Positions 6,590-58,853 of a DNA stretch of 64,000 nt are shown here, piece by piece. The stretch covers positions 124,001 through 188,000 of the forward strand of contig NZ_FQUE01000005.1 of the NCBI RefSeq assembly GCF_900128995.1. The letters are read 5' to 3'. The position numbers and the translations under genes were made by a program. The notes beneath the pieces are model-generated. The model ran no database searches, was not told where the DNA came from, and saw only the letters and a list, made by a program, of their open reading frames with translations. The stretch's first letter is position 1, and every line of letters begins with the position of its first letter. The stretch comes from Loktanella atrilutea (GTDB taxonomy: Bacteria > Pseudomonadota > Alphaproteobacteria > Rhodobacterales > Rhodobacteraceae).

Positions 6590-6641
6590 CCGTTTGCGCC
6601 CGGGGTGGCGTGGCGCTAGATTCCCGCAAAGGAGGAGCCCG

Positions 6642-7045: not shown

Positions 7046-7087
7046 TCTTGCGTGACCTGTCGTCATCGGATTTCTGACGTCACGTCA

Positions 7088-7107
7088 TGTTTACGTTAAC
7101 GTCAACA
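7088..7107 (+). promoter_or_regulatory. LiuR-like MerR operator upstream of the second merR gene
   Basis: TGTTTACGTTAACGTCAACA is a 20-bp palindrome with a single mismatched pair. Its core TTTACGTTAACG resembles the published LiuR motif (TTTACGT...ACGTAAA). A candidate -10 (TGTAAG, 7113-7118) lies 17 bases after TTTACG, the spacer arrangement of MerR-controlled promoters. Autoregulation and control of the beta-oxidation genes are inferred. Confidence 0.55.
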
Positions 7108-7172
7108 TTCATTGTAAGGTCCACGGCAAGAGGCGATCTGACGGTCACACCCGCCAGACGTGGAGAAAGACG

Positions 7173-7574
7173 ATGACGACCGATACCCTGAACATTCGAG
7201 AGATGTGCGACGCCTTTGACGTGACCCCCCGGACCCTGCGCTTCTACGAAGCCAAGGAACTGCTGTTCCCGATCCGCGAGGGGCAGCGCCGCCTGTTCAC
7301 CCGGTCCGACCGGGCGCGGCTGAAACTGATCCTGCGCGGCAAGCGCTTCGGCTTCAGTCTGGAAGAGATCCGGCAGCTGCTGGACCTTTACGCCATGGGC
7401 GACGGCCAGCTGACGCAGCTGAGCCAGACGTACACCCTGGCCGAGACGCACCTGGCCGACATGGAGGCCCAGCGCGCCGAACTGGACGAGGCGATCGCAG
7501 AGCTGAAGGCCCAGATGAAATGGGGTGCCGCGAAGCTGAAAGAGATTTCGGAGCAGGCCAGCAGCGCCGCCTGA
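7173..7574 (+). CDS. MerR family transcriptional regulator (LiuR/beta-oxidation type)
   Basis: 133-residue regulator with N-terminal helix-turn-helix ([20 protein letters not shown]), a wing around [15 protein letters not shown], and a long C-terminal coiled coil (residues about 85-125). It has no metal-binding Cys cluster. It lies 34 bases upstream of an acyl-CoA dehydrogenase gene on the same strand and behind a strong palindrome of the LiuR class. The likely role is acyl-CoA-responsive control of the following catabolic operon. It shares the [16 protein letters not shown] and LDE-AEL blocks with the neighbouring MerR protein. Confidence 0.87.
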
Positions 7575-7608
7575 TCCGACAGACACCGACCCGAGGGAGA
7601 GACACCAG

Positions 7609-9384
7609 ATGCCAAGCTATACCGCACCGCTCAAGGATTATCAGTTCGTGCTGCACGACGTGCTGCGGGTGTCCGAACAGGACATCCCGGGCTACGCCGA
7701 TCTCGACCGCGACTTCACCGCCGCGGTGCTGGAGGAAGTGGGCAAGCTGTCGTCCAACGTGCTGCAGCCGCTGAACGCGGTGGGCGACACCGAAGGCTGC
7801 CGGCTGGAAAACGGCGTGGTGCGGACGCCGACCGGGTTCAAGGCGGCCTTCGATCAGGTCCGCGACGGCGGCTGGACCGCCCTCGACGCGGCAGAGCAAT
7901 ACGGCGGTCAGGGCCTGCCCTACGTCATGCACACGGCGGCGAACGAGCCGATGGTCAGCGCCAACATGGCCTTCAACATGTATCAGGGCCTGACCCACGG
8001 CGCCTATTCCGCGATCCTCGCCCACGGGACGCAGGCGCAGAAGGACATGTTCCTGCCGAAACTCGCATCCTGCGAATGGACCGGCACGATGAACCTGACG
8101 GAACCGCATTGCGGCACCGATCTGGGCCTCATGCGCACGAAGGCCGTGCCGCAGGACGACGGCAGCTACAAGGTGACGGGGCAGAAGATCTTCATCTCGG
8201 CCGGCGATCACGACATGGCCGAGAACATCATCCACCTCGTGCTGGCCAAGATCCCCGGCGGGCCGGAGGGCATCAAGGGCGTGTCGCTCTTCATCGTGCC
8301 GAAGTTCATCGTCAAGGACGACGGTTCGCTGGGCGACCGCAACGGCGTCACGGTCGGCAAGATCGAGGAAAAGATGGGCATCCACGGGAATTCCACCTGC
8401 GTGATGAACTACGACGAGGCGACCGGCTATCTGATCGGCGAGGCGCACAAGGGGATGCGCGCCATGTTCGTGATGATGAACGAGGCGCGACTGGGCGTCG
8501 GCCTGCAGGGCTACGCGCAATCGGTCGCCGCCTATCAGAACGCTGTGGACTATGCCAACGATCGCCTGCAGGGCCGCGCCGTGACCGGTGCGCAGAACCC
8601 CGACGGCCCCGCCGACCCGCTGATCGTCCACCCCGACATCCGCCGCACGCTGATGGACCAGAAGTCCTTCAACGAAGGTGCACGGGCCTTCACCTTCTGG
8701 GGTGCCTCGCTGATCGACCGGGCACACAAGACTGGCGATGCGGCGGCCGAAGGGCTGGTGTCGCTGATGACGCCGGTCATCAAGGGCTTCCTGACCGACA
8801 AGGGCTTCGAATACGCGGTGGCGGCGCAGCAGGTCTACGGCGGCCACGGCTACATCGAGGAATGGGGCATGTCCCAGTTTGCCCGCGACGCCCGGATCGC
8901 GATGATCTACGAAGGGGCCAACGGCGTGCAGGCGCTGGACCTCGTGGGTCGCAAGCTGGCTGTCGACGGCGGCAAGCACCTGATGGGCTTCTTCGAGATG
9001 ATCAAGGGCTTCATCAAGGAGAACGAGGGCAACGCGGCGCTGAAGTCCGACTTCCTCGACCCGTTGAAGGCGGCAAGCAAGGACATGCAGGCGGCCGCGA
9101 TGTACTTCATGGGGTCGATGAAGAACCCGAACAACGCGCTGTCGGGCAGCTACGACTTCATGCACCTGATGGGCCACGTCTGCCTGGGCTACATGTGGGC
9201 GCGCAGTGCGGCGGCCGCCGTGCAGGCGCTGGAAGACGGCGCGTCCGACACCGCCTTCTACGAAACCAAGCTCGCGACGGGGCGCTATTACATGGCGCGC
9301 CAACTGCCGGCCACGTCGCTGCATCTGGCCCGCATCAACACCGGCGCGCAGCCCGTCATGGCGCTGGAGGCCGCCAGCTTTTGA
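7609..9384 (+). CDS. Acyl-CoA dehydrogenase, long (about 590-residue) DmdC/FadE-like type
   Basis: FAD enzyme that introduces the alpha-beta double bond in acyl-CoA thioesters, the first step of beta-oxidation. The 591 residues carry N-terminal, middle ([19 protein letters not shown], flavin contact) and C-terminal four-helix domains. E435 in [11 protein letters not shown] is the expected catalytic base. An extra about 100-residue C-terminal extension is typical of the branch that includes 3-methylmercaptopropionyl-CoA dehydrogenase DmdC. With thiolase and FadJ downstream, general fatty acyl-CoA oxidation is the simplest reading; DMSP-derived substrates remain possible. SD GAGGGAGA precedes the ATG. 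Confidence 0.9.
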
Positions 9385-9391
9385 GGGTGGC

Positions 9392-9409
9392 GGCGGGGTC
9401 CGCCCCGCC
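9392..9409 (+). other. Intercistronic GC hairpin
   Basis: GGCGGGG-TCCG-CCCCGCC directly follows the acyl-CoA dehydrogenase stop. It lacks a U-tract, so it is more likely an mRNA-stability or pausing hairpin than a terminator. Confidence 0.5.
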
Positions 9410-9436
9410 CTACCATCGCCGCAAAGGAGACCGCCG

Positions 9437-9649
9437 ATGCCCAAACGCCTGCGCCTGACCCGCCGCTTTCCGGTCGCGATGACCGAGGACGGCTACCGGC
9501 GGCTGAAGAAATTCGCGCGGGAGGCGGGGCTGGACGAAGGCGAGGCGCTGTCGTTCCTGTTCGAGAACTTCGACAGCATCCTCGATCAGGACACCTTCGG
9601 CCACCGGCTGCGGCTGTTCAACGCGGAACTGGAGGCGCGCAAGACGTGA
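9437..9649 (+). CDS. Small conserved hypothetical protein (70 aa)
   Basis: Short basic protein starting MPKRLRLTRRFPVAMTEDGY, with SD AAAGGAGA at 9423-9430. It is mostly alpha-helical by composition. The segment DGYRRLKKFAREAGLDEGEA followed by a hydrophobic SFLFENFDSIL recalls ribbon-helix-helix or DUF1778-like small DNA-binding proteins, but no motif is decisive. It sits between the acyl-CoA dehydrogenase and the GST gene on the same strand. Codon use matches the neighbours, so I take it as a real gene of unknown function. Confidence 0.6.
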   Translation: MPKRLRLTRRFPVAMTEDGYRRLKKFAREAGLDEGEALSFLFENFDSILDQDTFGHRLRLFNAELEARKT

Positions 9650-9665
9650 GCGTTGCAGGGCCGGC

Positions 9666-9711
9666 CAAGGCCGGCGCCTCCGGCGGGAGTATTTGCGGAA
9701 AAAGCGAGGAC
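9666..9711. repeat. Dispersed repeat type 2 (GCCTCCGGCGGGAGTATTT)
   Basis: CCAAGGCCGGCGCCTCCGGC pairs internally and is followed by GGGAGTATTTGCGG, then AAAAAGCGAGGAC. Partial copies occur at 9875-9898 (GTCCTCGCTTTTTTCC then AAATACTC) and 38915-38936 (CAAATATCCCCGCCGGAGGC). The orientation at 9.9 kb is inverted. Confidence 0.6.
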
Positions 9712-9780
9712 GGGAGGATGAGGCCCGATCCGTCGAGAGTTCCCCAGCCCCGCAGGGAGAGGCGCAGCACCACGGACCGG

Positions 9781-9898
9781 GTCCTCGCTTTTTACGGTCA
9801 TCGGCTCTCCAGCCTGTACCGCATGTCGAGGTTGGAACAATAAAGTTAAGGCTTGGTAAAATGGTGCGGCGCTTGTCCTCGCTTTTTTCCAAATACTC
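9781..9898 (+). repeat. Two further copies of GTCCTCGCTTTTT in the GST leader
   Basis: GTCCTCGCTTTTT occurs at 9781-9793 and 9875-9888, and inverted at 9699-9711. The 296-base interval 9650-9945 has no credible gene. The AT-rich patch ATAAAGTTAAGGCTTGGTAA (9841-9860) may hold a promoter for the GST gene. Confidence 0.55.
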
Positions 9899-9945
9899 AA
9901 AAAGCGACGCCCTCACCGGGCGCCACATCACACGGGAGGCACCAC

Positions 9946-10578
9946 ATGACGATCAAGCTGCACTGCTTCGGCGAAAGCGGCAACGCCTACAAGGCGGCGC
10001 TGACGATGACCCTCGCGGAGGTGGCGTGGGAGCCGGTCTTCGTTGATTTCTTCAAGGGGGCCACCCGCACGCCGGACTTCCGCGCGCTGAACGTAATGGG
10101 CGAGGTGCCGGTCATGGTGGACGGCGATCTGGTGATCACCCAGTCGGCAGTCATCCAAGACTACATCACCTCGAAGACCAGCAAGCTGGGCGGCAAGAGC
10201 GCTGACCAGCGGCGCGAAGTGCTGCGCTGGATGTTCTTCGACAACCACAAGGTCAGCGGCGTGGCCGGGCCCTTGCGGTTCAACACGAACTTCCTGCCCG
10301 AGGACAAGCGCAGCACGGAGGTCAACGACTTCATGCTGATGCGGCTCAAGTCGGCGCTGAAGGTCATGGACACGCATCTGGCGGACCGCGACTGGCTGGC
10401 GACCGAGGAACTGACCGTCGCCGATATCGCCTGCTGCGGCTACCTTTTCTACGAAGAACCCTTCGGGTTCGACCGCACCGAATTTCCCCATGTCGACGCC
10501 TGGCTCGACCGCATCGCGGCGACGCCCGGCTGGAAACACCCCTATGATCTGATGCAGCGCGCCCTGCCCGCTGCCTGA
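9946..10578 (+). CDS. Glutathione S-transferase family protein
   Basis: 210-residue soluble protein with an N-terminal thioredoxin-like domain (residues 1-78). MTIKLHCFGESGNAYKAALT is the first strand and helix, GEVPVMVDGDLVITQS carries the cis-Pro and the glutathione gamma-glutamyl contact. The C-terminal helical domain has the usual LTVADIACCGYL element. The likely catalytic Ser is near residue 10. It precedes a thiolase gene by 16 bases, so it belongs to the beta-oxidation run. There it might detoxify electrophilic acyl intermediates, but no substrate can be read. Start chosen from GGGAGG at 9934-9939. Confidence 0.88.
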   Translation: MTIKLHCFGESGNAYKAALTMTLAEVAWEPVFVDFFKGATRTPDFRALNVMGEVPVMVDGDLVITQSAVIQDYITSKTSKLGGKSADQRREVLRWMFFDNHKVSGVAGPLRFNTNFLPEDKRSTEVNDFMLMRLKSALKVMDTHLADRDWLATEELTVADIACCGYLFYEEPFGFDRTEFPHVDAWLDRIAATPGWKHPYDLMQRALPAA

Positions 10579-10594
10579 AGAAAGGACCAGGACC

Positions 10595-11806
10595 ATGACA
10601 GACGCCTATATCTTCGACGCCGTGCGCACCCCCCGCGGCAAGGGCCGCGCCGACGGCAGCCTGCACGAGGTCACCAGCGCCCGGCTGTCCGCCGGGGTGC
10701 TGAACGCCCTGAAGGAGCGCAACGACCTGCAGGGCCACGCCGTCGAGGACGTGATCTGGGGCAACGTCACGCAGGTCGGCGAACAGGGCGGCTGCCTTGC
10801 GCGGACGGCCGTGCTGGCCTCGGACCTCGACCAGTCGATCCCGGGGCTTGCGATCAACCGCTTCTGCGCGTCAGGGATGGAGGCCGTGAACCTCGCCGCC
10901 AACCAGATCCGCGGCGGGGCCGGTCAGGCCTACATCGCCGGTGGTGTGGAAATGATGGGCCGCGTCGCCATGGGCAGCGACGGGGCGGCGATCGCCGTCG
11001 ATCCGTCGATCGCGATGGACACCTATTTCGTGCCGCAGGGAATCTCGGCGGACATCATCGCCACCGAATATGGATTTTCGCGAGACGAGGCCGATGCGCT
11101 GGCGGTGGAATCCCAGCGCCGCGCCAAGGCGGCCTGGGACGACAACCGGTTCGCGCGGTCGATGATCACCGTGCGCGACGTGAACGGGCTGCCGATCCTC
11201 GACCACGACGAATACATGCGGCCCCAGACCGACATGCAGAGCCTCGGCGCGCTGAAGGCGAGCTTCAAGGACATGGGCGAAAGCATGCCCGGTTTCGACA
11301 AGGTCGCGCTGATGAAGTATCCGCATCTGGAGCGGATCAATCACATCCACCACGCGGGCAATTCGTCCGGCATCGTCGATGGCTCTGCCGGTGTCCTGCT
11401 GGGGTCGAAGGAATGGGGCGAGGCGATGGGTCTGAAGCCCCGCGCGCGCATCCGCGCCACCGCCAAGATCGGCACCGATCCCACGATCATGCTGACCGGC
11501 CCGGTGCCGGTGACCGAGAAGATCCTGAAGGACTCCGGCATGAACATCTCGGACATCGACCTCTTCGAGGTGAACGAGGCCTTCGCCTCGGTCGTGCTGC
11601 GGTTCATGCAGGCTTTCGACGTCGATCCATCGGTGGTCAACGTGAATGGCGGTTCGATCGCGATGGGCCACCCGCTGGGGGCCACCGGCGCCATCATCAT
11701 CGGCACCCTGCTGGACGAGCTTGAGCGGACCGGCAAGTCCACCGGCCTTGCCACGCTGTGCATCGCATCGGGCATGGGGGCCGCGACGATCATCGAAAGG
11801 GTGTGA
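10595..11806 (+). CDS. Acetyl-CoA acyltransferase (thiolase), FadA-like
   Basis: Catalyses thiolytic cleavage of 3-ketoacyl-CoA to acetyl-CoA and a shortened acyl-CoA. 403 residues with the complete thiolase triad: nucleophile C91 (INRFCASGMEAVN), H359 (GGSIAMGHPLGATG) and C389 (LCIASGMGAAT), plus NEAF near residue 327. Downstream FadJ supplies its substrate, so the pair forms the beta-oxidation complex. SD GAAAGGA lies just upstream. It follows the GST gene with 16 bases between and is followed 5 bases later by the SnoaL-like gene. Confidence 0.93.
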   Translation: MTDAYIFDAVRTPRGKGRADGSLHEVTSARLSAGVLNALKERNDLQGHAVEDVIWGNVTQVGEQGGCLARTAVLASDLDQSIPGLAINRFCASGMEAVNLAANQIRGGAGQAYIAGGVEMMGRVAMGSDGAAIAVDPSIAMDTYFVPQGISADIIATEYGFSRDEADALAVESQRRAKAAWDDNRFARSMITVRDVNGLPILDHDEYMRPQTDMQSLGALKASFKDMGESMPGFDKVALMKYPHLERINHIHHAGNSSGIVDGSAGVLLGSKEWGEAMGLKPRARIRATAKIGTDPTIMLTGPVPVTEKILKDSGMNISDIDLFEVNEAFASVVLRFMQAFDVDPSVVNVNGGSIAMGHPLGATGAIIIGTLLDELERTGKSTGLATLCIASGMGAATIIERV

Positions 11807-48670: not shown

Positions 48671-49735
48671 TTATACAGTTTTGTGAGGTTCTTCCTGCAG
48701 GCCCGGCGTGCCCATGCCGGTGATGCACGACGTCAGGTCGGCAGCGGCGGTCAGGGCGCGGCCCGTGGCCTGCGCCATCAGCGGCAGGACCATCCATTCC
48801 AGCGCCCAGGCCGCGCCGGAGCGTTCCTGTTCGTGCACCATCGCCTGCTGCATCAGCCCCGCCTGCCCCGCATTGAAACGCGCCAGTGTGACGAGGAGTT
48901 CGGCGAGGATCGGGTTCTGCTTGTGCGCCATGGCGGACGAACTGCCGCCGCCGGCGATGGCGACCTCTGCCAGTCCCTGCTGCGCCATCAGGGTGATATC
49001 CTGCCCCATCTTGCCAAGGCTGCCGCTGATCAGGGCGAGCAGATTGGCATATTCCACGATGCCGCTGCGGTCGGTGTGCCATGATACGGGGGCCGTGGTC
49101 AGGCCGAGGGCCTGTGCCATGGGTGCTGCCACATCCGTGAAATCGCCGGTGCCGGTGGGGCCCGACAGGGACAGCCGTTCGGTCTGCGCGCGGGCCAGCG
49201 TCAGGCGCGCGCGGTGGTCGACCAGCGGCGCACGCCACAGGCGGATGCGGTCGGCCACGGTGACGGGCAAGGCCGCCTGCATCCGGGTGCGGCCCATCAG
49301 GGGTACTGCGCCGAAGCGGTCCGACAGATCAACGAGACCGGCGGCCAGTGCCGCGAGGCGGTCGTCGATGAGGTCGGATGTTTCCCGCAGGGTCAGCGCC
49401 AGGCCCGTGTCCAGCACGTCCTGCGACGTGGCACCGGTGTGAATCGCCTGACCCGCGTTCCCTGCCCCGGCCTTCAGCAGCTTGATCAGCGCTGGCACGG
49501 GCAGGCCGTCGCTGGCGCACCCGGCAGAGAGCGTGGCCACGTCGATCGTGCAGTCAGCGATGTGATCGGCGGCCTGCACGGCAAGGGTGGCATCGAAGCG
49601 CCCGGCCTGTCCCATGGCGCGGGAGAAGGCGGCTTCGAAGGCGCGCATGTGGGCGATCTGCGCCTCGGCGGACCAGAGGGTCGCGATCTGCGGATCGGCA
49701 AAGAGTCCGTCGTAAAGGGCGTTGGCGAAAGTCAT
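48671..49735 (-). CDS. pcaB: 3-carboxy-cis,cis-muconate cycloisomerase
   Basis: Converts 3-carboxy-cis,cis-muconate to 4-carboxymuconolactone in protocatechuate breakdown. The 354 residues belong to the fumarase/aspartase superfamily: AIHTGATSQDVLDTGLAL (conserved region 2) and the flexible signature loop GGGSSSAMAHKQNPI with the catalytic Ser. It overlaps pcaC by four bases (ATGA, 49732-49735). The protein is shorter than many PcaB (about 450), consistent with alphaproteobacterial members that lack the C-terminal extension. Confidence 0.9.
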   Translation of the reverse strand: MTFANALYDGLFADPQIATLWSAEAQIAHMRAFEAAFSRAMGQAGRFDATLAVQAADHIADCTIDVATLSAGCASDGLPVPALIKLLKAGAGNAGQAIHTGATSQDVLDTGLALTLRETSDLIDDRLAALAAGLVDLSDRFGAVPLMGRTRMQAALPVTVADRIRLWRAPLVDHRARLTLARAQTERLSLSGPTGTGDFTDVAAPMAQALGLTTAPVSWHTDRSGIVEYANLLALISGSLGKMGQDITLMAQQGLAEVAIAGGGSSSAMAHKQNPILAELLVTLARFNAGQAGLMQQAMVHEQERSGAAWALEWMVLPLMAQATGRALTAAADLTSCITGMGTPGLQEEPHKTV

Positions 49736-50109
49736 TCCGCCGCCATCTCGGCCAGTGTCTCCTTGGCGAGCTTGATCGCGTGGTTGGCCTTGGGCACGCC
49801 CGCATAGACCGCGACATGCATGAAGGCCTGCAGGATGTCGGAGGGACTGGCCCCGGTGCGGGCGGTGGCGCGAACGTGCATCGGGATTTCCGCGAAGTTG
49901 CCGGTGGCGGCCAGCAGCGCCAGCGTCAGCATCGAGCGTTCACGCCGGGTGATGGCGTCCGAGGCCCAGAGCGTGCCCCAGGCGCCTTCGGTGATCATGT
50001 CCTGAAAAGGCTGGTCGAAGTCGGTCTTGGCGGCCTCGGCCCGGTCGACATGGGCGTCGCCCAGAACGGCGCGACGGGTCTGCATGCCGGTGGCGTGGCG
50101 GTCGGTCAT
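49732..50109 (-). CDS. pcaC: 4-carboxymuconolactone decarboxylase
   Basis: 125-residue all-helical CMD-family protein that decarboxylates 4-carboxymuconolactone to 3-oxoadipate enol-lactone. Conserved blocks: DFDQPFQDMITEGAWGTLWA, LTLALLAATGNFAEIPMHVR with the active-site acid and His, and ILQAFMHVAVYAGVPKANHA. It is coupled to pcaB, which makes its substrate. pcaD, pcaH and pcaG are not present in the window; the order C-B without H and G between is unusual for roseobacters. Confidence 0.92.
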   Translation of the reverse strand: MTDRHATGMQTRRAVLGDAHVDRAEAAKTDFDQPFQDMITEGAWGTLWASDAITRRERSMLTLALLAATGNFAEIPMHVRATARTGASPSDILQAFMHVAVYAGVPKANHAIKLAKETLAEMAAE

Positions 50110-50197: not shown

Positions 50198-51169
50198 TCA
50201 GGCGGCCCCCGGGATCGCGACGCGGCGGGCGCTGTCCTGGAAGGCGTGCATGGACATGGGCCAGACGGTGCCGGGCCATCGGATTTCCATCTCGCGCAGG
50301 CGGGGGCGGTAGACGGCGGTGTAGAGCGTGCCGAAGCCGGCCGCGAAAGCAGTGGAATAGAGCGGCGGTTTCAGGAACGCGTCGATGAAGACGTCCTCCG
50401 GGTCGCGGTGCAGGGTCAGGCGCTGCAGCAGATAGCGCTCGCGTTCGACCGTGGCGGTGAAACGGGCGTGGCTGATCCATTCCACCTGTTCCTGATGGTT
50501 GGTGGCGACGGCGTTGTGGGTGATCAGGGTGGTGCGGTCCGGGCCCATCATCGCGGTCAGGTAGTCGCGGTTTTCGTCCAGCACGGTGACGTTGTAGGAC
50601 ATGTGGGTTGGAATGCGGGCCAGCACCGCGCCGGCCTGTCGCGCCGTGCTGCAGGTCTGCAGGATGTAGCGCAGGATCAGTGGCACGCCGAAGCCCTTGC
50701 CCACCACCCGGCGGCCGCCGAAGGTGAGCGAGACGGCAAGGCCCGCGTCGTTCACGCCGTCGACGATCCCCCAAAGCCCGTCGCTGACCCCCATGACGCG
50801 GCGGCCCTGCCAGTCGGTGTTCAGGATGAGGCTGTCGAAGGCGGCGGGGTTGTAGTCGTAGTTGCGCACCATGACCGGTTCGGTGCCGGGCCAGATCGCC
50901 TGAGAGCATCCGGCGAGGTAGGGCGGCGGATTGTAGAACGACAGGAAGCGCGCGGCATGGTCCCCGCCGCCCGCCAGTTCGCAGAGCCGGTCGTAGAGCG
51001 GGACCAGTTCCGGCATGTGTGCCTGCAGCGCCCGGTGACACTCGAGGTAGGTCGGCCGCGCGTTTTCGCCGTCCTTCAGCCACCAGCGCCGGTAGGCGGG
51101 CCAGTATTCGGCGAACAGCCCGGCCCATCGGGGGCCGGGCTGATCCTCTGACAGGGCGCGCCAGAGCAT
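50198..51169 (-). CDS. C45-family Ntn acyltransferase/hydrolase (isopenicillin acyltransferase-like)
   Basis: 323 residues from MLWRALSEDQPGPRWAGLFA. The family is made as a proenzyme that cleaves itself before a Cys, which becomes the N-terminal nucleophile. Here the likely Cys is C88 in PPPYLAGCSQAIWPG, followed by the diagnostic VMVRNYDYNP and, further on, NHQEQVEW. Characterised relatives transfer or remove acyl groups on amines. The gene starts two bases after the ATP-grasp stop, so it is coupled to it. It is the last gene of the nitrilase/decarboxylase/ATP-grasp array. Substrate unknown. Confidence 0.78.
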   Translation of the reverse strand: MLWRALSEDQPGPRWAGLFAEYWPAYRRWWLKDGENARPTYLECHRALQAHMPELVPLYDRLCELAGGGDHAARFLSFYNPPPYLAGCSQAIWPGTEPVMVRNYDYNPAAFDSLILNTDWQGRRVMGVSDGLWGIVDGVNDAGLAVSLTFGGRRVVGKGFGVPLILRYILQTCSTARQAGAVLARIPTHMSYNVTVLDENRDYLTAMMGPDRTTLITHNAVATNHQEQVEWISHARFTATVERERYLLQRLTLHRDPEDVFIDAFLKPPLYSTAFAAGFGTLYTAVYRPRLREMEIRWPGTVWPMSMHAFQDSARRVAIPGAA

Positions 51170-51171
51170 GG

Positions 51172-52632
51172 CTACATGATCTTGAAGGCGGGTTCGGCGA
51201 GGGCCGGACCGGCGGCGGCGACGGGCAGCGGCTTGCCCGCGACAGATTGCTTGATGCCGTGGATCCACTTTGCGGCGCGGTCGTTCAGCTGGAACGCCTT
51301 GGTCATCGACCGCCCGCGCGTCACGAGGATGCCGATGTCGGCCCCTTCGTAGCGGTAGTCGCCGGGCTGCAGGATGCGCAGGAAGAAGGCCTCGTTTTCG
51401 GATTCCACCGCGCGGCGGTGATAGTCGAAGCGGTCATAGACCACGCGGCCGTCCTCCAGCATCTTGTAGATGCCGGTTTCCGGTGCCTCGGTGCAGATGT
51501 CGACCGTGTCGGCGGTATGCTTGATGACCATCTGCGACCAGCTGTCGATCATGTCCGGGTTGGCCCAGCGGCTGTTCAGCTCGTCGACGTCCAGTTTGAA
51601 TTTTTTACGCGAGAATTCAAGCAGGTGGAACAGGAAGAGCGGCGCGTCCGCATGGGCGAAGGCGGCGTGGTTGGTCATCGACGAACAGCCGGTGATGCGG
51701 GGGTTCAGCTCGCCCAGCCACAGGTCGCCGGTCTTCTTGTCGATCAGGAAGTCGAGCTCGAAGTAGCCGCGATACCCCTCCTTCCGCAGCTGCTCGCCGA
51801 ACTTGAAGGTCATGTCGCGGGCCTGCTGGCGCACCTTGGGCGGGAAGGCGGTCGCAAGGATCTCGTTCCCGCACCAGCCGCCCCGATAGGGTGTCAGGTC
51901 CTTGAAGCCAACGAGTTCGGTCATCAGCGGGCCGACGATGGTGCCCTGGCTCGTCGCGCAGGCCTCGATCGCGGATCCGCGGCAGTCGATCCGCTTCATG
52001 ATCTTGATCTCGCCCTCGCCCACGATCTCGTGCTCGTGGCGGCGGAAGTCCTCCTCGGACTTGATGAAGAACGTGGTGTGCCCCGAGTCGCCATAGGCCG
52101 ATTGCAGCACCAGATCGTGGCCGATCCCGGCCTTCTCGCAGGTCTTGCGCAGGTCCTCGTAGGATTTCACCTCGGCCAGCGTGTTCGGCACGGACGGGAC
52201 ACCGGCCTTGTTGCCGATGCGCACGGTCTCGATCTTGTTGTCCATCGACTGGCGCAGCTTGGCCTTGGGGAACCAGACGTCGGCGCCCAGCTCCTTGCTC
52301 AACCGCTCAGTCTCCTCGTCGAACATCAGGAACACGAACTTCGGCTTGCCGCCGCGCCGCTTGATGTAGTCGATGACCTCCTTGTGCTGGAGGAGGTAGT
52401 TGTTGATATCCTCGATCGACTGGAATTCCGCGTGCGGCTGTTCGGACGGGCAGAAGACGTTGGGATGCTTGCCGCCGTAGCAGTCGATGTAGCAGATGTA
52501 TTTGAAATTCTTGACCCATTCGTCGAGGCCGAGCAGGTTGAAGTTCGTCGCAGAGATGAAATAGACCGGGTCTTCGTTGCGGTGAAAGAAGCGGCGGATT
52601 TCCGAGATGTTCTTGAGAACTGTCGTGGTCAT
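51172..52632 (-). CDS. ATP-grasp ligase of the biotin-carboxylase-like superfamily
   Basis: 486-residue enzyme with a pre-ATP-grasp Rossmann-like domain (residues 1-130, including KPKFVFLMFDEETERLSKEL), the ATP-grasp lobes (DLVLQSAYGDSGHTTFFI as the nucleotide loop), and the metal site in ELDFLIDKKTGDLWLGELNP. A long C-terminal domain (about 340-486) is not typical of biotin carboxylase, and no biotin-carrier gene is near. It more likely activates a carboxylate as acyl-phosphate and joins it to an amine. SD AGAAGGA; 14 bases after the decarboxylase stop. Its base composition is a little AT-richer than the neighbours. Confidence 0.8.
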   Translation of the reverse strand: MTTTVLKNISEIRRFFHRNEDPVYFISATNFNLLGLDEWVKNFKYICYIDCYGGKHPNVFCPSEQPHAEFQSIEDINNYLLQHKEVIDYIKRRGGKPKFVFLMFDEETERLSKELGADVWFPKAKLRQSMDNKIETVRIGNKAGVPSVPNTLAEVKSYEDLRKTCEKAGIGHDLVLQSAYGDSGHTTFFIKSEEDFRRHEHEIVGEGEIKIMKRIDCRGSAIEACATSQGTIVGPLMTELVGFKDLTPYRGGWCGNEILATAFPPKVRQQARDMTFKFGEQLRKEGYRGYFELDFLIDKKTGDLWLGELNPRITGCSSMTNHAAFAHADAPLFLFHLLEFSRKKFKLDVDELNSRWANPDMIDSWSQMVIKHTADTVDICTEAPETGIYKMLEDGRVVYDRFDYHRRAVESENEAFFLRILQPGDYRYEGADIGILVTRGRSMTKAFQLNDRAAKWIHGIKQSVAGKPLPVAAAGPALAEPAFKIM

Positions 52633-52646
52633 GAATCGTCCTTCTG

Positions 52647-55424
52647 CTATTCTGCGGCGGTCTTGTCGGTGGCCTTGTCAGCGATCTTCTTTCTGGATGC
52701 GGGTTGCTGTTGCGGCATCAGCGCGGCAAGCGCCTCTTGCGTGAAGACGCGCAGGCCCAGATCGGCGCGGTAGCCGTGGATCTCGTTCACGTCGAGGGCG
52801 CGCATGAAGGCGAGGATTTCCGAACTGATGACCTGCCCCGGCACGAGGATCGGGAAACCGGGCGGATAGGGGATGATGAAGCTGGCCGAGACGACCTCCC
52901 TGCCCGCCTCCAGCGCCTGCTTCAGTGACCCGTCGAGGTCCATGTAGTCGCATTTGCTTTCGTCATAGGCGAGGTAGTAGGCCGTGCGGATGTCGCCTTC
53001 GGAGGTCACGTCGTCGGCGCGGAAGGCATCGTGGAAACGGCTGAAATCCGGCAGCGGCGGGTAGTTCTGCGTCAGGTTCGCGACGCGACGCTCGAACCCC
53101 AGACGTTCCATCTTGGACGCATCGTCCAGCAGGTCGTCGAGGGAGCGTGCGATTTCCACCAGCACCTCGATCAGATAGGCGACGGAGGACCGCGTGGTGC
53201 CGATGTTGGTCATGAACAGGACGGAGTTGCGGGACGTCTTGTTGATCTGGATGCCGTAGCGGTCCATCAGGATCCGGGTCTTGAAGGTATCGCCGTCCCA
53301 GCCGGTGCCGCCCACGGCCAGCGTCACGCGCGTCGCGTCGAGGACGAATTCGTCGTCCTCCCAGGCTTCCAGCATGTCGATCCAGCCGCGGTCCTCGTCG
53401 TAGTAGCTCTCGGTGCCAGAGGCACGGTATTCCGACGGGATCATTTCGGCGAGGCTGAGGACCTTGAAGTATTTCTTCAGCAGCGGATGACTGGCGATGG
53501 CGCGCCGCATCGACATCGCGGCCTCAAGCTGTCTTTGAACGAATTCAAAGCCTTCCAGTTCGACCTGCCGGCGGCCCACGTCAAGCGATGCGATGATCTG
53601 GTAGTTGGGCGAGGTCGAGGTGTGGGTCATGTAGGCTTCGTGGAAGGCCTGCTCCACCTCGCCCTTGAAGTCCTGATCGTTGACATGGATCATCGACCCC
53701 TGCCGCAGGGACGTGAGTGTCTTGTGGGTGGACTGCGTGGCATAGACGCGGATCCGCGCGGTCGGCGGGGCGATCAGGCGGGTGTCGAGCAATGTCTTTG
53801 TATCGGCCCCTTTCAGCATCTTCTGCTGGGCATCAAAGGCCTTGGCGTGGTCGTCGGTCTTGAACCGCGCCCGCATCTTGTTGGCGGTGCGCATCGCCGT
53901 GCGCTTGCGGTAGGTCGGGTTGAACCGGGCGAAGGCGAACCACGCCTCGTCCCAGAGGAAGATCAGGTCGGGCTTGATCGCCAGACATTCCTCCATCACC
54001 CGTTCGACATTGTAGACGATGCCGTCGAAGGTGCAGTTGGTCAGCAAGAGCATCCGCACACGATCGAGCTTGCCCGCGGCCTTGAGGTCGAGCAGCTGCT
54101 GCTTGATCTCGCGCAGGGGCACCGCGCCATACATCGAGTATTCGTTCAGCGGATAGCTGTCGAGGTAGCAGACCTGCGCGCCCGCCAGCACCATGCCGTA
54201 GTGGTGCGACTTGTGGCAGTCGCGGTCGACCAGCACGATATCCCCCGGCCTGACAAGGGCTTGCACGACGATCTTGTTGCAGGTCGAGGTGCCGTTGGTG
54301 GCAAAGAACGTCTGTTTCGACCCGAAGGCCCGAGAGGCGAGTTCCTGTGCCTCCTTGATTGGCCCGTGGGGTTCCAGCAGGCTGTCCAGCCCGCCCGAGG
54401 TGGCCGAGGTTTCGGCCAGAAAGATGTTGGGCCCGTAGAAGGCGCCCATGTCCTGAATCCAGTGCGACCGGGTGATCGACTTGCCGCGGCTGATCGGCAT
54501 GGCGTGAAAGACGCCCGTCGGCTGCTTGGAATATTCCACCAGCGCCGTGAAGAACGGCGTCTTGTAGCGCGCCTGCACGCCCCGCAGGATGTTCAGGTGC
54601 AGTTCCATGAAGTCTTCCTGATTGTAGAAGACCCGGCGGCAGACGCCCAGTTCCGTGCCGGCGATATCCTCGACCGACCGTTCGGTGACGAGGTAGGCGT
54701 CCAGTTCCGGGCGCACGTCGTCGATCAGGCGGCACAGGGCGGGGCCGAAATCCTTGGATTCCAGATCCTTCAGCTTTTCGGTCCCGGCAATGCCTTCGAG
54801 GAATCGGGCCAGGATCGGATGGTGCGAGCGCGAGCGCAGGGTCACGCCCGGCCGCACCACGATGGCCTGGATGTTGTGGTTGAACAGCACCGCGATCAGC
54901 GCGTCCTCGACCGAAGGCACGACAAGCGCTTCGTAGACGAAGGGGTCTTCGGCCCGACGCATGGCGTGGACGTTGGATTTCAGCCAGTGCTCCTGCGCGT
55001 CGCTGACCTCGTCGACGATCAGCACCTCGAAATAGGGCTTGGTCAGGGCGCGGACCTCGGGGCTCAGCAGCGCCTCGTCGTCATGCTCCTCGCGGTCGTC
55101 GCTGTCGTGGTCCAGCGGAATGTGGCGGCGACGATAGGCCCCCGTCGACAGGGCGCGCGCCGTGCGGTGCACGCTGTAGGACAGTTCGGTAAAGCTGTTG
55201 TGCTCGAACTGGCGACGCATGTGGGCGAAGACCTGCATGCCCGGGAACGCCCAGTACCCTTCGATCTCGGCCAGCCCTTCGAAAAGCTCGGAGGCCTGGC
55301 TGCGCAGGGTCGGGCTGATCCGGGCCGGCGCCTCGCGCGACAGCTGCGCCGTGACCTCGCGCAGCTCGCTCCACCGGTCGGCACGCAGCTGGGTTGCGGA
55401 ATAGTAGTCGGTCACGGAATGCAT
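52647..55424 (-). CDS. PLP-dependent Orn/Lys/Arg decarboxylase-family protein (large form)
   Basis: 925 residues, fold-type I, larger than E. coli LdcC/AdiA (about 715-755). About 130 extra N-terminal residues precede a response-regulator-like wing (YFEVLIVDEVSDAQEHWLKS). The PLP domain has FATNGTSTCNKIVVQAL, DRDCHKSHHYGMVLAGAQV, LIFLWDEAWFAFARF and the Schiff-base lysine K568 in ATQSTHKTLTSLRQGS. A C-terminal domain contains SFIIPYPPGFPILVPG. A basic amino acid is the expected substrate and a polyamine-like amine the product. It lies 84 bases after the nitrilase gene, with a hairpin between, and 14 before the ATP-grasp gene. Confidence 0.87.
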   Translation of the reverse strand: MHSVTDYYSATQLRADRWSELREVTAQLSREAPARISPTLRSQASELFEGLAEIEGYWAFPGMQVFAHMRRQFEHNSFTELSYSVHRTARALSTGAYRRRHIPLDHDSDDREEHDDEALLSPEVRALTKPYFEVLIVDEVSDAQEHWLKSNVHAMRRAEDPFVYEALVVPSVEDALIAVLFNHNIQAIVVRPGVTLRSRSHHPILARFLEGIAGTEKLKDLESKDFGPALCRLIDDVRPELDAYLVTERSVEDIAGTELGVCRRVFYNQEDFMELHLNILRGVQARYKTPFFTALVEYSKQPTGVFHAMPISRGKSITRSHWIQDMGAFYGPNIFLAETSATSGGLDSLLEPHGPIKEAQELASRAFGSKQTFFATNGTSTCNKIVVQALVRPGDIVLVDRDCHKSHHYGMVLAGAQVCYLDSYPLNEYSMYGAVPLREIKQQLLDLKAAGKLDRVRMLLLTNCTFDGIVYNVERVMEECLAIKPDLIFLWDEAWFAFARFNPTYRKRTAMRTANKMRARFKTDDHAKAFDAQQKMLKGADTKTLLDTRLIAPPTARIRVYATQSTHKTLTSLRQGSMIHVNDQDFKGEVEQAFHEAYMTHTSTSPNYQIIASLDVGRRQVELEGFEFVQRQLEAAMSMRRAIASHPLLKKYFKVLSLAEMIPSEYRASGTESYYDEDRGWIDMLEAWEDDEFVLDATRVTLAVGGTGWDGDTFKTRILMDRYGIQINKTSRNSVLFMTNIGTTRSSVAYLIEVLVEIARSLDDLLDDASKMERLGFERRVANLTQNYPPLPDFSRFHDAFRADDVTSEGDIRTAYYLAYDESKCDYMDLDGSLKQALEAGREVVSASFIIPYPPGFPILVPGQVISSEILAFMRALDVNEIHGYRADLGLRVFTQEALAALMPQQQPASRKKIADKATDKTAAE

Positions 55425-55467
55425 AGCGGTCGTTCCTCGTCATGGTCTGGCGGGACACCGTGTCGGA

Positions 55468-55496
55468 CCTGCGGCCCGGCGCTTGCCGGCCGCAGG
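55468..55496 (-). other. Hairpin between the nitrilase and decarboxylase genes
   Basis: Stem CCTGCGGCC/GGCCGCAGG around an 11-base loop, 12 bases after the nitrilase stop. It has no U-tract, so read-through or mRNA processing is more likely than full termination. Confidence 0.5.
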
Positions 55497-55508
55497 CAAG
55501 GTGGTGCG

Positions 55509-56480
55509 TCAGCTTCCGCCAGTGTGGGGGACAGCCGCCGCGCCTGCAACACCTAGTGCGGGTGTTTTGTACTCGACCCCGATTTCCGCCTCGGCCGGCA
55601 CCTCTACATGCAGGCCGGCCCGGGTTCCCTGATGCGGGATTTCCAGCGGCCCCAGCGTGTTGAGGAACGAATCGACGCCGCTGGCGCGGTCGTAGACGCT
55701 GAAGTCGACGTCCCGGTCGCGGAAGGATTTCAGGACCTGCCCCAGCCCCTTCAGCCCCGTCTCGCGCTGGCGGCGCACCATGTCGAGGTCGACCTCGATG
55801 GGGAACATGTCCTCCTGCCCGCCCGACTGATGCAGCACCATCGACGTGGGATCGACCACGCAGGACTTGCCGATGCCGCCCGCGCCAAGGCCGTTCACGT
55901 CGATGACGTAGCACTGGAACTGCGCCGCCGTGGCCCGCGCGATGGCCAGTTCCGCGTCGCGGTCGGTGGTGCCGGTCAAGACCGGGTGCAGCAGCACCTC
56001 CACCCCCTGCGCGGTCAGCTGGCGCGTCGTTTCGGGGAACCAGATGTCATAGCAGATCGACAGGCCGAAGCGGCCCACGTCCGGCACGTCGAAGACGCAG
56101 AACTCGGTGCCCGCGCTGATGCCCGCCTCGTAGGGCCGAAACGGAAACATCTTGGCGTAGCGCTTCACTATATTGCCGTCCGGGTCGATCACGACCGCGG
56201 TGTTCAGGATGCGTCCGTCGGGCGCGCGCAGGAACATCGATCCGGGGATCAGCCAGACGCGGTGCTTGCGCGCCGCCTCGCAGAAGCGGTCCAGCGTCTC
56301 GTTCTGCGGCTCCATCGCGAACTTGTCGAGCGGACCATAGGGCGCGAGTTCGGAAAACAGCACCATCTGCGTCCAGGGAAAACGCGCCATCAGCACGTCG
56401 AGGCGCTGCAGCATGCCGTCGACATTGGGTTGCAGGGCATTGACGTACATCTGCACGCCGGCGATCGCGAAGGGGGTCAT
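55509..56480 (-). CDS. Nitrilase-superfamily C-N hydrolase
   Basis: 323-residue amidohydrolase with the full Glu-Lys-Cys triad: E44 (VLFSELAPYGP), K110 (RYAKMFPFRPY) and C143 (GLSICYDIWFPETTR). Members hydrolyse amides, nitriles or N-carbamoyl amines; N-carbamoylputrescine amidase and omega-amidase are relatives. A C-terminal extension beyond about residue 265 is variable. It opens the gene array with the PLP decarboxylase, ATP-grasp ligase and C45 enzyme, so an amide or carbamoyl derivative of a basic amine is a plausible substrate. The upstream 191 bases to gabT contain dispersed repeat D. Confidence 0.85.
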   Translation of the reverse strand: MTPFAIAGVQMYVNALQPNVDGMLQRLDVLMARFPWTQMVLFSELAPYGPLDKFAMEPQNETLDRFCEAARKHRVWLIPGSMFLRAPDGRILNTAVVIDPDGNIVKRYAKMFPFRPYEAGISAGTEFCVFDVPDVGRFGLSICYDIWFPETTRQLTAQGVEVLLHPVLTGTTDRDAELAIARATAAQFQCYVIDVNGLGAGGIGKSCVVDPTSMVLHQSGGQEDMFPIEVDLDMVRRQRETGLKGLGQVLKSFRDRDVDFSVYDRASGVDSFLNTLGPLEIPHQGTRAGLHVEVPAEAEIGVEYKTPALGVAGAAAVPHTGGS

Positions 56481-56581
56481 TCCGGGTCTACTTCTGATAT
56501 GTGACGCGACGGGCGCGCTTGACCGTCATCTAGCACGCAAGCAGCCGAAAGGGAAACGGACGCCACGGCAACCCGCGGCGT

Positions 56582-56661
56582 CCCCTTCTTCTCGTCGGAA
56601 ATACCTCGGGGGTGTGGGGGCAGCGCCCCCACCGGATCGGCCCGGCTCGCCGGGCCGATCC
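56582..56661. repeat. Dispersed hairpin repeat, copy D
   Basis: CCCCTTCTTCTCGTCGGAAA, TACCTCGGGGGTGT, hairpin GGGGGC-AGC-GCCCCC (56617-56631), then GATCGGCCCGGC-TC-GCCGGGCCGATC (56636-56661). It lies between gabT and the nitrilase gene. Confidence 0.75.
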
Positions 56662-56671
56662 GCCATGGCTG

Positions 56672-58078
56672 TCACGCCGCCTGCTGCTCGGCCACCGCCG
56701 CGGCCAGCGCCGCTTCGAAGATCGCCAGACCTTCGTCGATCACCGCATCGGACGCCGTCAGCGGCACCATGATGCGCAGGGCGTTGCCGTGCAGGCCGCA
56801 GGACAGCAGGATCAGACCGCGCTTCAGCGCGTGCGCCACGACGCGCTTCGTCAGGTCCGCATCCGGCGCGGCGGTATTGAAGTTGCTGACGAATTCGACA
56901 GCCACCATGCCGCCCAGACCGCGGATGTCCCACATCCGGTAGGGGGCCGCCCGGGCGCCGATCTCGGCGAACTTCGCCTTGAAGTGCTCGCCGATGCGGG
57001 TGGACCGCTCCAGCAGACCCTCCTCCTCGATCACGTCGATGGCGGCGAGTGCGGCCGCACAGGCGACGGGGTTGCCGCCATAGGTGCCACCCAGACCCCC
57101 GGGAATCATCGCGTCCATGATGTCGGCGCGACCGATCACGCCAGCGATGGGATAGCCGCCCGCCATCGACTTCGCCACGGTGATCAGGTCCGGTACGACG
57201 CCGGAATGTTCGACGGCGAACCACTTGCCGGTCCGGCCGAAACCGGCCTGAATCTCGTCCGCGATCAGCAGGATGCCGTGCATGTCGCAGAGCGCACGCA
57301 AGGCCTGCAGCATCTCGAAGGGCACGGGGGTGTAGCCGCCTTCGCCCAGCACCGGCTCGATGATGATGGCGGCGATGCGTTCGGGCTGGGCGTCGGTCAG
57401 CATCAGGTTGTTCAGCGCCGTCAGCGCATCCTGCACGGTGATGCCGTCGCGGGCGTTCGGAAAGGGCGCGCGGAAGATGTCCGCGGGGAACGGGCCCACG
57501 TCCTTCTTGTAGGGGCTGATCTTGCCGGTCAGGCCCAGCGTCAGCAGGGTGCGGCCGTGGTAGCTGCCGGTAAAGGCGATGACACCGGTGCGACCGGTCG
57601 CGGCACGGGCAATCTTCACCGCATTCTCGACCGCCTCTGCGCCGGTGGTGACCAGCAGCGTCTTCTTGGCGTGCTCGCCGGGGGCCAGTGCGTTCAGACG
57701 CTCTGCCAGTGCCACGTAAGGTTCGTATTGCACGACCTGAAAGGACGTGTGGGTATAGAGGTCTTCCTGCGCCTTGGCGGCGGCGATGACCTTGGGGTGA
57801 CGGTGACCGGTGTTCAGCACCGCGATGCCGCCGACGAAGTCAATGTAGCGGTTGCCCTCCACGTCCCACAGCTCTGCATTTTCGGCGTAGCTGGCGAAGA
57901 CCGGTGCGGCAGAGGCGACGCCGCGGGGCACGGCCGCCTCGCGCCGCTTCAGCAGGGCGGCGTTCGACTGCGCCTCGACCGGCAGGTCAGGCACGACGGT
58001 CAGCGGCGTCCGCGTGGCGGCCTGTGCGGCCGTGGCGGGTTTCATCTTGGTCTTGCTGGGTGTGGGTTTGTTGGTCAT
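56672..58078 (-). CDS. gabT: 4-aminobutyrate/omega-amino aminotransferase (class III)
   Basis: 468-residue PLP transaminase that moves the terminal amino group of GABA or related omega-amines to 2-oxoglutarate. Motifs: [37 protein letters not shown], the Asp in [15 protein letters not shown], and Schiff-base K303 in [15 protein letters not shown] low-complexity N-terminal extension of about 40 residues ([20 protein letters not shown]) precedes the conserved start. It is divergent from the XRE-cupin regulator and upstream of the amine-processing array on the same strand, which fits polyamine or GABA catabolism. Confidence 0.92.
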
Positions 58079-58136
58079 GCGCGCCGTCCTTTGCGAGCCA
58101 GAGGTGTCTAGAATCCTAGTGCTGCCTGTTTAATAT

Positions 58137-58155
58137 AATTGCCAGACCGGCAATT
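58137..58155. promoter_or_regulatory. Palindromic operator between gabT and the XRE-cupin regulator
   Basis: AATTGCCAGACCGGCAATT is a 19-bp inverted repeat (AATTGCC/GGCAATT). The half-motif CAGACCGGC inside it (58143-58151) recurs at 58243-58251, exactly 100 bases away. It is the likely binding site of the divergent regulator. Confidence 0.55.
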
Positions 58156-58286
58156 CGTTCCATTTTGCGTCACGAATGGTCTGGAAGCGACCCCGCGCCG
58201 TTTTCGCTTGATCACCGCAGGACATCGTTGCCTAAATGCCGTCAGACCGGCGACGCCGTCGCGGTCGCGCGTGGAGGGAGGCCCTT

Positions 58287-58853
58287 TTGGACATCGGTGA
58301 ACGGTTGCGGACCCTGCGCGAACGGCACGGTCTGTCCCAGCGCGAACTGGCGGCCCGCGCAGGGCTGACCAACGGCACGATCAGCCTGATCGAGAAGAAC
58401 AGGACCTCGCCCTCCGTCGCGTCGCTGAAGTCGTTGCTGGACGCGATCCCGATCAGCATGGCAGAGTTCTTCACTCCGCCGGACCCGGCCCCGGCCGAAG
58501 CGCCCCGCTTCTTTTTCAAGGCGGACCAGTTCCACGAGATCGCGCCACAGGACGCCGATCCGCGCCCGCACGTGTCCCTGCGCCAGCTGGGCCGGGCGGC
58601 GGAACACGCGCTGCAGCTGCTGCACGAGACCTATCCGCCGGGTGCCGATACCGGTCCCGAATTGCTGAGCCACGCAGGCGAGGAAGCGGGCATCGTCGTG
58701 ACCGGCGAAATCGAGGTGACCGTCGACGGCGCGGTGGCGGTGCTGGCGGCGGGCGACGGCTATATCTTCGACAGCCGCCTGCCGCACCGGTTCCGCAATC
58801 CGGGCGATGCGGTCTGCGAGGTGATCAGCGCCTGCACGCCGCCGAGCTTCTAG
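58287..58853 (+). CDS. XRE-family regulator with cupin domain (PuuR-like)
   Basis: 188 residues from a TTG start at 58287, behind a strong SD (GGAGGGAGG, 58273-58281). The helix-turn-helix is RLRTLRERHGLSQRELAARA, followed by GLTNGTISLIEKNRTSPSVA. A cupin sensor domain covers about residues 80-185 (EEAGIVVTGEIEVTVDGA, GYIFDSRLPHRFRN). The family includes PuuR, the putrescine-responsive repressor. An in-frame ATG at 58236 would add 17 Arg-rich residues but would place an operator-like box inside the gene, so I prefer TTG. It likely regulates gabT and itself. Confidence 0.85.
   Translation: MDIGERLRTLRERHGLSQRELAARAGLTNGTISLIEKNRTSPSVASLKSLLDAIPISMAEFFTPPDPAPAEAPRFFFKADQFHEIAPQDADPRPHVSLRQLGRAAEHALQLLHETYPPGADTGPELLSHAGEEAGIVVTGEIEVTVDGAVAVLAAGDGYIFDSRLPHRFRNPGDAVCEVISACTPPSF

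Follow-up and report, generated by a model that had tools for sequence, protein, structure and literature searches.

Four consecutive genes of Loktanella atrilutea make up a genuine metabolic module that has yet to be studied and that probably channels an arginine-like compound into the metabolism of GABA. The genes lie in the window, the 64,000-nucleotide stretch of DNA that was analysed, and encode a nitrilase-superfamily amidase (NIT), a long PLP-dependent decarboxylase (DEC), an ATP-grasp enzyme (GRASP) and an N-terminal-nucleophile enzyme (C45) (Table 1). Literature searches turned up no description of this combination, in agreement with the first-pass annotation of this DNA, which knew of no pathway with exactly these four genes.

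Layout and conservation of the array

The array reads NIT-DEC-GRASP-C45 on one strand, with intergenic gaps of 84, 14 and 2 bases. The longest C45 reading frame starts at 51268; the proteins of relatives start like the ATG at 51169 (MLWRA..., 323 aa), and this start gives the 2-base gap between GRASP and C45. With it, the coordinates bear out the original description of four consecutive minus-strand genes.

Table 1. Features of the array and its upstream region (positions in the window)
Feature	Position	Strand	Details
NIT, nitrilase-superfamily amidase	55509..56480	-	323 aa; E44/K110/C143; Pfam CN_hydrolase 112 bits
DEC, long PLP-dependent Orn/Lys/Arg-type decarboxylase	52647..55424	-	925 aa; K568; Pfam OKR_DC_1 257 bits
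GRASP, ATP-grasp enzyme, PRK06524 family	51172..52632	-	486 aa; NCBIfam NF005096 752 bits (cut-off 684)
C45, N-terminal-nucleophile amidase/acyltransferase	50198..51169	-	323 aa; C88; NCBIfam NF040521 178 bits (cut-off 85; longer ORF scanned)
gabT, 4-aminobutyrate transaminase, directly upstream of array	56672..58078	-	TIGR00700 544 bits, above cut-off
PuuR-like HTH-cupin regulator, divergent from gabT	58236..58853	+	NCBIfam PuuR model 143 vs 211 bits, under cut-off
Putative operator/-35 site TGGCAATTATATTAAACA between puuR and gabT	58127..58144	-	Motif learned from puuR promoters
Terminator-like hairpin between gabT and NIT	56558..56583	-	11 pairs

The array order was kept in 75 of the 80 genome-contig loci (the best 80 of 277 relatives), and the remaining five were interrupted by contig ends. 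Counting the window, it was kept in 95 of 102 uncut distinct loci. These loci were chosen by similarity to GRASP, leaving arrays that lack GRASP uncounted; order was judged among the searched families only, and the counts overstate the number of events because close relatives are not independent. Since the order recurs at this frequency, chance adjacency of the four genes is ruled out. The first-pass annotation had proposed a single compact pathway unit and had named the break-up of synteny in close relatives as an observation that would speak against it; the same counts show synteny retained. Many marine and soil bacteria have the unit; it is present in Rhodobacterales and also on plasmids, both the symbiotic ones of rhizobia and those of Cupriavidus (same order in L109). 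GRASP-C45 is its most constant pair, and the two genes are separable: GRASP stands alone in L124, has no C45 beside it in L107 and is on the opposite strand from C45 in L133. NIT accompanies GRASP-C45 in L117 and L137, where no DEC was found nearby.

Families of the four enzymes

Active-site residues are intact in all four proteins, as had been claimed. In NIT, E44, K110 and C143, which we take to be the nitrilase catalytic triad, were located at the positions first reported. The best NCBIfam models for NIT were far under their cut-offs (deaminated glutathione amidase, 69.8 vs 355 bits), and by curated cut-off it is not the N-carbamoylputrescine amidase AguB (58.8 vs 410 bits).

DEC matches the OKR_DC_1 profile, and its PLP lysine K568, stacking His and PLP-binding Asp align with those of E. 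coli AdiA, CadA and SpeF. Residues 12-903 match the Rv2531c-type amino acid decarboxylase of PDB 9n0n/9n0o at 850 bits, and the Rv2531c-type structures (9n0n/9n0o/9n0p) can be aligned along nearly the whole of DEC. This similarity places DEC in the uncharacterised Rv2531c family. The published account describes the activity of Rv2531c as not clarified (PMC12910592). Compared with AdiA, CadA and SpeF, DEC did not stand out as closest to AdiA (143, 148 and 122 identities; 34, 34 and 26 unique matches, respectively); with AdiA and CadA at 34 unique matches each, the residues gave no lean, and reading substrate specificity from them was dropped.

GRASP exceeds the curated PRK06524 cut-off, has no Pfam match and carries E308, N310 and R312 invariant across 22 sequences. 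Its nearest PDB families, by remote sequence match, are biotin-dependent carboxylases and carbamoyl-phosphate synthase, and its database name is biotin carboxylase. GRASP shares the ATP-grasp fold with that enzyme at this remote level, but has ELNPRITG/NPRITGASS where carboxylases have NPRIQVEH. Because the carboxylase NPR-x-QVEH stretch is replaced by NPRITGASS, we rule out a biotin carboxylase identity and regard the name as a misnomer. The structure prediction for GRASP was poor (pLDDT 39.6), the input alignment being too uniform. These remote relatives, together with a class I glutamine amidotransferase gene ahead of GRASP in L137, would fit a reaction in which GRASP uses bicarbonate to carboxylate or carbamoylate a guanidino or amine nitrogen and C45 or NIT hydrolyses the product. 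The replaced motif argues against this, as does the scan of nine window proteins (47.5-58.9 kb), which found no biotin carrier, and we consider it the least likely of the readings weighed here.

C45 belongs to the AAT/C45 family by a profile score above cut-off, a nucleophile Cys after Gly and a predicted C45 fold. Residues C88, R102, D105 and N224 were invariant in a 17-member alignment. The predicted model (pLDDT 76.4) had isopenicillin N acyltransferase (2x1c), a family C45 enzyme, as its top Foldseek match; the two have the fold and the Cys-Arg-Asp-Asn set in common, but share only 14-16% identity in structural alignments.

Regulator, upstream site and neighbouring genes

Regulatory context was examined in 115 loci (116 supplied, including the window; L126, with no GRASP match over 40% of its length, was dropped), a set separate from plasmid loci L104-L117 and L137-L142. 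A puuR-like gene was near the array in 36 of the 115, and in 35 of these it adjoins gabT or a TAXI-TRAP importer: 26 are divergent from gabT, five are divergent from TAXI and four are ahead of TAXI. The remaining one of the 36 is elsewhere. A GabT-type gene immediately precedes NIT in 12 of the 75 complete loci (best 80 of 277 relatives) and also in L149, where it is 55% like the window gabT.

The window site between puuR and gabT is the sole match in its own genome at up to one mismatch and the sole match in the window at up to three. Across 12 genomes, the full site was present in eight and not found in G764, G781, G840 and G794. At 12 bits or more, its core precedes NIT in 11 of the 26 loci that have puuR but no TAXI (0.28 expected); where puuR is missing, it precedes TAXI in 22 of 45 loci (1.9 expected), and the controls gave 0/111 and 0/110. 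None of the 26 loci that lack puuR as well as TAXI has such a site. Upstream of DEC, nine of 111 regions scored at p <= 0.05 against about 5.6 expected under the first-order Markov control, and none reached 12 bits. This upstream site, common to relatives, makes the proposed regulon directly testable. Against the regulon reading, the window NIT has no strong site (top score -4.3 bits; 1.5 bits in L003), and a hairpin lies between gabT and NIT. The evidence for that hairpin is weak, because three such sites occur in the region vs 1.6 expected.

Many relatives have a TAXI-TRAP, oligopeptide-type or Pot-like importer adjoining the array, with TAXI flanking it in 41 of the 80 loci (best 80 of 277). 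The earlier statement that no polyamine transporter accompanies the genes thus holds for the nine window proteins scanned, but not for relatives, where importers often adjoin. Downstream of C45, 27 of the 75 complete loci have a co-oriented gene for a class-III aminotransferase, and an aldehyde dehydrogenase is present in five of the 80 loci (both among the best 80 of 277 relatives). No ureohydrolase homologue was found in those 80 loci. In a few other loci one is present: that of L143 is nearest to guanidinobutyrase (514 bits; guanidinopropionase 321, proclavaminate amidinohydrolase 242, agmatinase 207), that of L118 is nearest to 3-guanidinopropionase (443 bits; other reference enzymes 323, 237 and 207), and L120 has a gene 88% like the latter. 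The L118 operon also holds a gene of the TauE/SafE family, which is named for export. Since both tested ureohydrolases (L143, L118) resemble guanidino-acid enzymes rather than agmatinase, an agmatine-to-putrescine step is unsupported. Agmatinase-family genes occur in 146 of 149 Rhodobacterales genomes and are uninformative by themselves. On two related plasmids, of Shinella zoogloeoides and the unverified Roseateles sp. XES5, GRASP-C45 is embedded among genes for a racemase, a D-amino acid dehydrogenase, a 5-guanidino-2-oxopentanoate decarboxylase, an aldehyde dehydrogenase and an agmatinase-family protein. Together, the PuuR-like regulator, gabT, the ureohydrolases and these arginine-catabolic operons uphold the proposal that the array is tied to the metabolism of basic amino acids, of amines and of GABA.

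The recurrence of importers, ureohydrolases, aldehyde dehydrogenases and aminotransferases as neighbours points to catabolism, a context that has fairly good support. The same neighbours give no support to the signal or osmolyte product suggested at first. An unlikely reading is that the array builds a conjugate, with GRASP joining the DEC amine to an acid and C45 exchanging or trimming acyl groups to yield an acyl-polyamine signal, storage compound or osmolyte. A ligase-type enzyme does adjoin C45, whose modelled fold best matches an acyltransferase, arrays occur on Rhizobium symbiotic plasmids (one adjoining nifHDKEN), and the TauE/SafE-family gene would fit; gabT, ureohydrolases and dehydrogenases are catabolic, however, and importers flank the array in many species, exporters as such being outside the search.

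In L129 and L130 the array (NIT-GRASP-C45-DEC-ALDH-aminotransferase) lies between doeA-doeB-Lrp and doeC/doeD-like genes, and an S. meliloti plasmid carries a DEC homologue that ~2.7 kb, including an IS element, separate from an ectB-annotated gene. The substrate of DEC might accordingly be 2,4-diaminobutyrate or an acid like it, with the array as an extension of ectoine catabolism, but this is highly unlikely: doeA was near the array in just two of 80 loci (best 80 of 277 relatives), and the guanidino-acid ureohydrolases would be unexplained. As a general substrate ectoine is rejected, doeA-type genes being common regardless of the array (111 of 149 Rhodobacterales genomes, 41 above curated cut-off).

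A candidate route to GABA and its known counterparts

We tentatively favour a reading of the array as a catabolic module, one that would convert an arginine-like amino acid, guanidino- or amine-ended, to GABA for GabT under a PuuR-type regulator. DEC would decarboxylate a basic amino acid, most likely arginine, and GRASP would use ATP to cap the amine, or what it is oxidised to, by forming an amide. Agmatine has a single primary amine, which such a cap would block; this counts against the route. The free end may then be oxidised by an aminotransferase of class III together with an aldehyde dehydrogenase, whose genes some species have within the operon and others presumably have at another site. 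C45 would hydrolyse the amide (uncap), and a guanidinobutyrase-type ureohydrolase, where present, would release urea. NIT may hydrolyse a second or side-product amide, like deaminated-glutathione amidases. The ectoine-degradation setting of L129 and L130 is left unexplained by this arginine-to-GABA route. Also counting against it are the 80 loci (best 80 of 277), where aldehyde dehydrogenase genes are few and no ureohydrolase homologue was found, and the lack of an AdiA lean in DEC.

NIT, the guanidinobutyrase-like neighbour and gabT would also fall into sequence if DEC were an O2-using PLP enzyme converting arginine to 4-guanidinobutyramide, with NIT yielding 4-guanidinobutyrate, guanidinobutyrase yielding GABA, and GRASP-C45 a separate accessory pair. 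Nitrilase-superfamily amidases catalyse such amide steps in lysine and arginine monooxygenase routes. This oxidative route is distinctly unlikely, as it leaves the most constant pair, GRASP-C45, unaccounted for, and NIT remains with that pair in the loci where DEC was not found.

More tentatively still, the favoured module may be an undescribed arginine/polyamine-to-GABA pathway on amide-capped intermediates, one that evolved independently of the Puu pathway but parallels it. If so, it would assign functions at once to PRK06524 ligases, Rv2531c-type decarboxylases and this C45 branch. Working out what the array does would correct the recurrent biotin carboxylase annotation of GRASP-type proteins and offer a clue to what the Rv2531c family catalyses, and it could show by what route marine bacteria obtain nitrogen from guanidino compounds.

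Known routes from arginine through 4-guanidinobutyrate to GABA include those by arginine decarboxylase, by a transaminase and by a racemase/dehydrogenase pair. In some species a guanidinobutyrase-like gene, ketoarginine decarboxylase, racemase and GabT are likewise near the array; to our knowledge, none of these routes needs an ATP-grasp or C45 enzyme. Compared with the E. coli Puu pathway (PuuA-PuuB-PuuC-PuuD-PuuE, PuuR), the array has an ATP-grasp ligase instead of the GS-like PuuA, C45 instead of PuuD, and DEC and NIT in addition, and its regulator is under the PuuR model cut-off (143 of 211 bits). No GS-type PuuA, PuuB oxidase or PuuD hydrolase was found among the nine window proteins scanned; the Loktanella genome has two PuuA-like genes, both on other contigs. 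The array gave no signal of replacing PuuA, as GS-type PuuA homologues were present in 66 of 66 genomes (33 with the array, 33 without). The two systems have in common a GABA transaminase and a PuuR or PuuR-like regulator, and Puu combines in one regulon an ATP-dependent amide ligase and an amide hydrolase, as we propose for GRASP and C45.

Gene order and distribution of the array

ORF, Pfam/NCBIfam and alignment checks confirmed the four minus-strand ORFs of the first-pass annotation, with their order, gaps and motifs: a nitrilase-superfamily gene (NIT), an Orn/Lys/Arg-type decarboxylase (DEC), an ATP-grasp enzyme (GRASP) and an Ntn amidase/acyltransferase-type enzyme (C45). Among the best 80 of 277 relatives, NIT-DEC-GRASP-C45 lay on one strand in 75 loci, and the other five end inside the array. 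A wider set of 115 loci with GRASP, including the window, contained 114 distinct at 99%, of which 12 were cut. The same order was found in 95 of the 102 distinct loci left, while three had NIT-GRASP-C45-DEC, two DEC-GRASP-C45, one had DEC parted from NIT-GRASP-C45 by puuR and gabT, and one had GRASP alone. Outside this set, Rhizobium and Sinorhizobium plasmid loci carried DEC-GRASP-C45 without NIT, with no C45 seen adjoining GRASP in L107 of this group. The complete order was present in Cupriavidus (L109) and NIT-GRASP-C45 in L117. The related plasmids of Shinella zoogloeoides and the unverified Roseateles sp. XES5 have GRASP-C45, with NIT ~7.5 kb away on the opposite strand; the Roseateles plasmid has a DEC homologue elsewhere. 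In genome G827, a second, 44%-identical GRASP stands in a run lacking DEC. This comparison across loci, plasmids and the G827 paralogue identifies GRASP-C45 as the most constant pair; L124 (GRASP alone), L107 and L133 (C45 on the opposite strand) depart from it.

The Rhizobium and Sinorhizobium plasmid loci with DEC-GRASP-C45-type arrays are L105-L108 and L110. L105 adjoins nifHDKEN, and in L107 a short stretch 3' of GRASP is followed by IS elements. Shorter matches on several Sinorhizobium plasmids suggest decaying array copies, and the GRASP match of L093 is possibly another. In one search, pcaB-like and pcaC genes were both matched in L003, only pcaB in L058 and L064, and neither in L004.

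Coordinates of array features and related loci
Feature	Location	Coordinates	Remarks
C45 start codon (ATG)	window	51169	most likely the real start
pcaB-like 3-carboxy-muconate cycloisomerase and pcaC 4-carboxymuconolactone decarboxylase	window	48671-50109	protocatechuate pathway; after array, same strand
Class I glutamine amidotransferase, GRASP, C45, NIT	L137 (G827)	6495-10972	opposite an NMT1-type ABC importer
GRASP match, C-terminal part only	L093 (G197:C1)	4206100-4206630	adjoins full-length-looking C45
Cluster c7 example	L103	5856-7475	opposite strand to array

GRASP falls clearly inside NCBIfam PRK06524 (752 bits; cut-off 684), a model named 'biotin carboxylase', and Pfam gave no hit for it at the threshold applied. 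Among 385 genomes in the class, 11 carried PRK06524, as did 11 among 398 in the phylum, eight above cut-off in each; the two sets share the genome studied here and G154 among the carriers. By protein similarity, GRASP relatives occurred in 33 of 149 genomes of the order. The closest named relative of the window among the loci returned was Loktanella salsilacus (GRASP 97%), and 32 plasmid records add Roseobacter, Pseudorhodobacter, Shinella, Rhizobium, Sinorhizobium, Roseateles and Cupriavidus.

Family assignments of the four enzymes

DEC residues 12-903 match the cryo-EM structures 9n0n/9n0o (850 bits), and similarity to AdiA, CadA and SpeF is only remote, with no clear lean toward arginine over lysine decarboxylases. 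According to a review (PMC12910592), 9n0o is Rv2531c, whose activity was not clarified. DEC homologues (48-50%) without the array adjoin aspartate-alanine antiporter genes on Rhizobium, Ensifer and Rhodobacter plasmids (L114, L115, L116), two of which also have an aspartate 4-decarboxylase, perhaps an acid-resistance setting. C45 has the predicted fold of isopenicillin N acyltransferase. The solved relatives closest to GRASP by sequence, though remote, are carboxylases and carbamoyl-phosphate synthase; the carboxylase motif was absent from GRASP in this comparison. NCBIfam models, the best far below cut-off, gave no assignment of NIT to an established branch.

Neighbouring genes and the PuuR-like regulator

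A TAXI solute-binding gene accompanied the array in 41 and a TRAP permease in 42 of the best 80 of 277 relatives, seven of which had an oligopeptide-type binding protein 3' of the array. In 27 of the 75 complete loci, the gene immediately 3' of C45, on its strand, encodes a class-III aminotransferase (PRK07483 in L005, the member tested). A ureohydrolase and a Pot-like ABC importer come after the array in L143; every NCBIfam match of the importer was under cut-off. The L143 ureohydrolase is closest to guanidinobutyrase 3nio (514 bits) and that of L118, separated from NIT by a TauE/SafE-family gene, to 3-guanidinopropionase 3nip (443 bits), compared with 242 and 237 bits, respectively, for proclavaminate amidinohydrolase and ~207 for agmatinases. 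Arginine-catabolic genes surround GRASP-C45 on the Shinella-type plasmids. A doe/eut ectoine-degradation operon encloses NIT-GRASP-C45-DEC in L130 and, judged by homology, in L129, both from genomes of a different class; the terms nitrilase and ATP-grasp are absent from the available main text of an ectoine regulon study (PMC5320631). FMN-binding glutamate-synthase-family genes (cluster c7) recur as neighbours in 24 loci. Upstream of the DEC-GRASP-C45 arrays of L134 and L135 is a urea-transporter/M23 fusion gene, and the next gene (323 aa) had no Pfam or NCBIfam match at the thresholds used.

Of the 115 loci, 36 carried a PuuR-like gene, which was divergent from gabT in 26, divergent from TAXI in five, in tandem just 5' of TAXI in four and otherwise placed in one. 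Training on the upstream regions of 35 puuR genes gave the motif GTTTAATATA.TTGTCA, whose 11-base core was scanned at 12 bits or more. Among 26 loci with puuR and without TAXI, 11 had the core 5' of NIT (0.28 expected); the count was 0 of 26 for loci without puuR. The core preceded TAXI at 22 of 45 loci lacking puuR (1.9 expected) and at five of nine with puuR, which overlap the training set. Control regions upstream of DEC (0/111) and C45 (0/110) had none. The full motif was found in eight of 12 genomes searched, one copy each; in the genome studied here, this lies between puuR and gabT. Since the window has no motif site 5' of NIT and a terminator-like hairpin between gabT and NIT, PuuR control of the array is hypothetical in this genome.

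Possible function and comparison with the Puu pathway

The neighbours and the regulator suggest that the array probably serves to break a guanidino/amine compound down to GABA. The four-gene combination is not described in the literature searched, mainly non-subscription papers, nor in the accessible portions of PMC10228743 and PMC8305402. Since the most constant pair joins an amide-forming type to an amide-cleaving type, a cap-and-uncap mechanism analogous to that of the Puu pathway may tentatively be proposed, in which GRASP would form an amide cap and C45 would cleave it. A literal copy of the Puu pathway is argued against by three points: an established substrate is lacking for every array enzyme, each of the 66 genomes tested encodes PuuA homologues, and both ureohydrolases tested here are of the guanidino-acid type.
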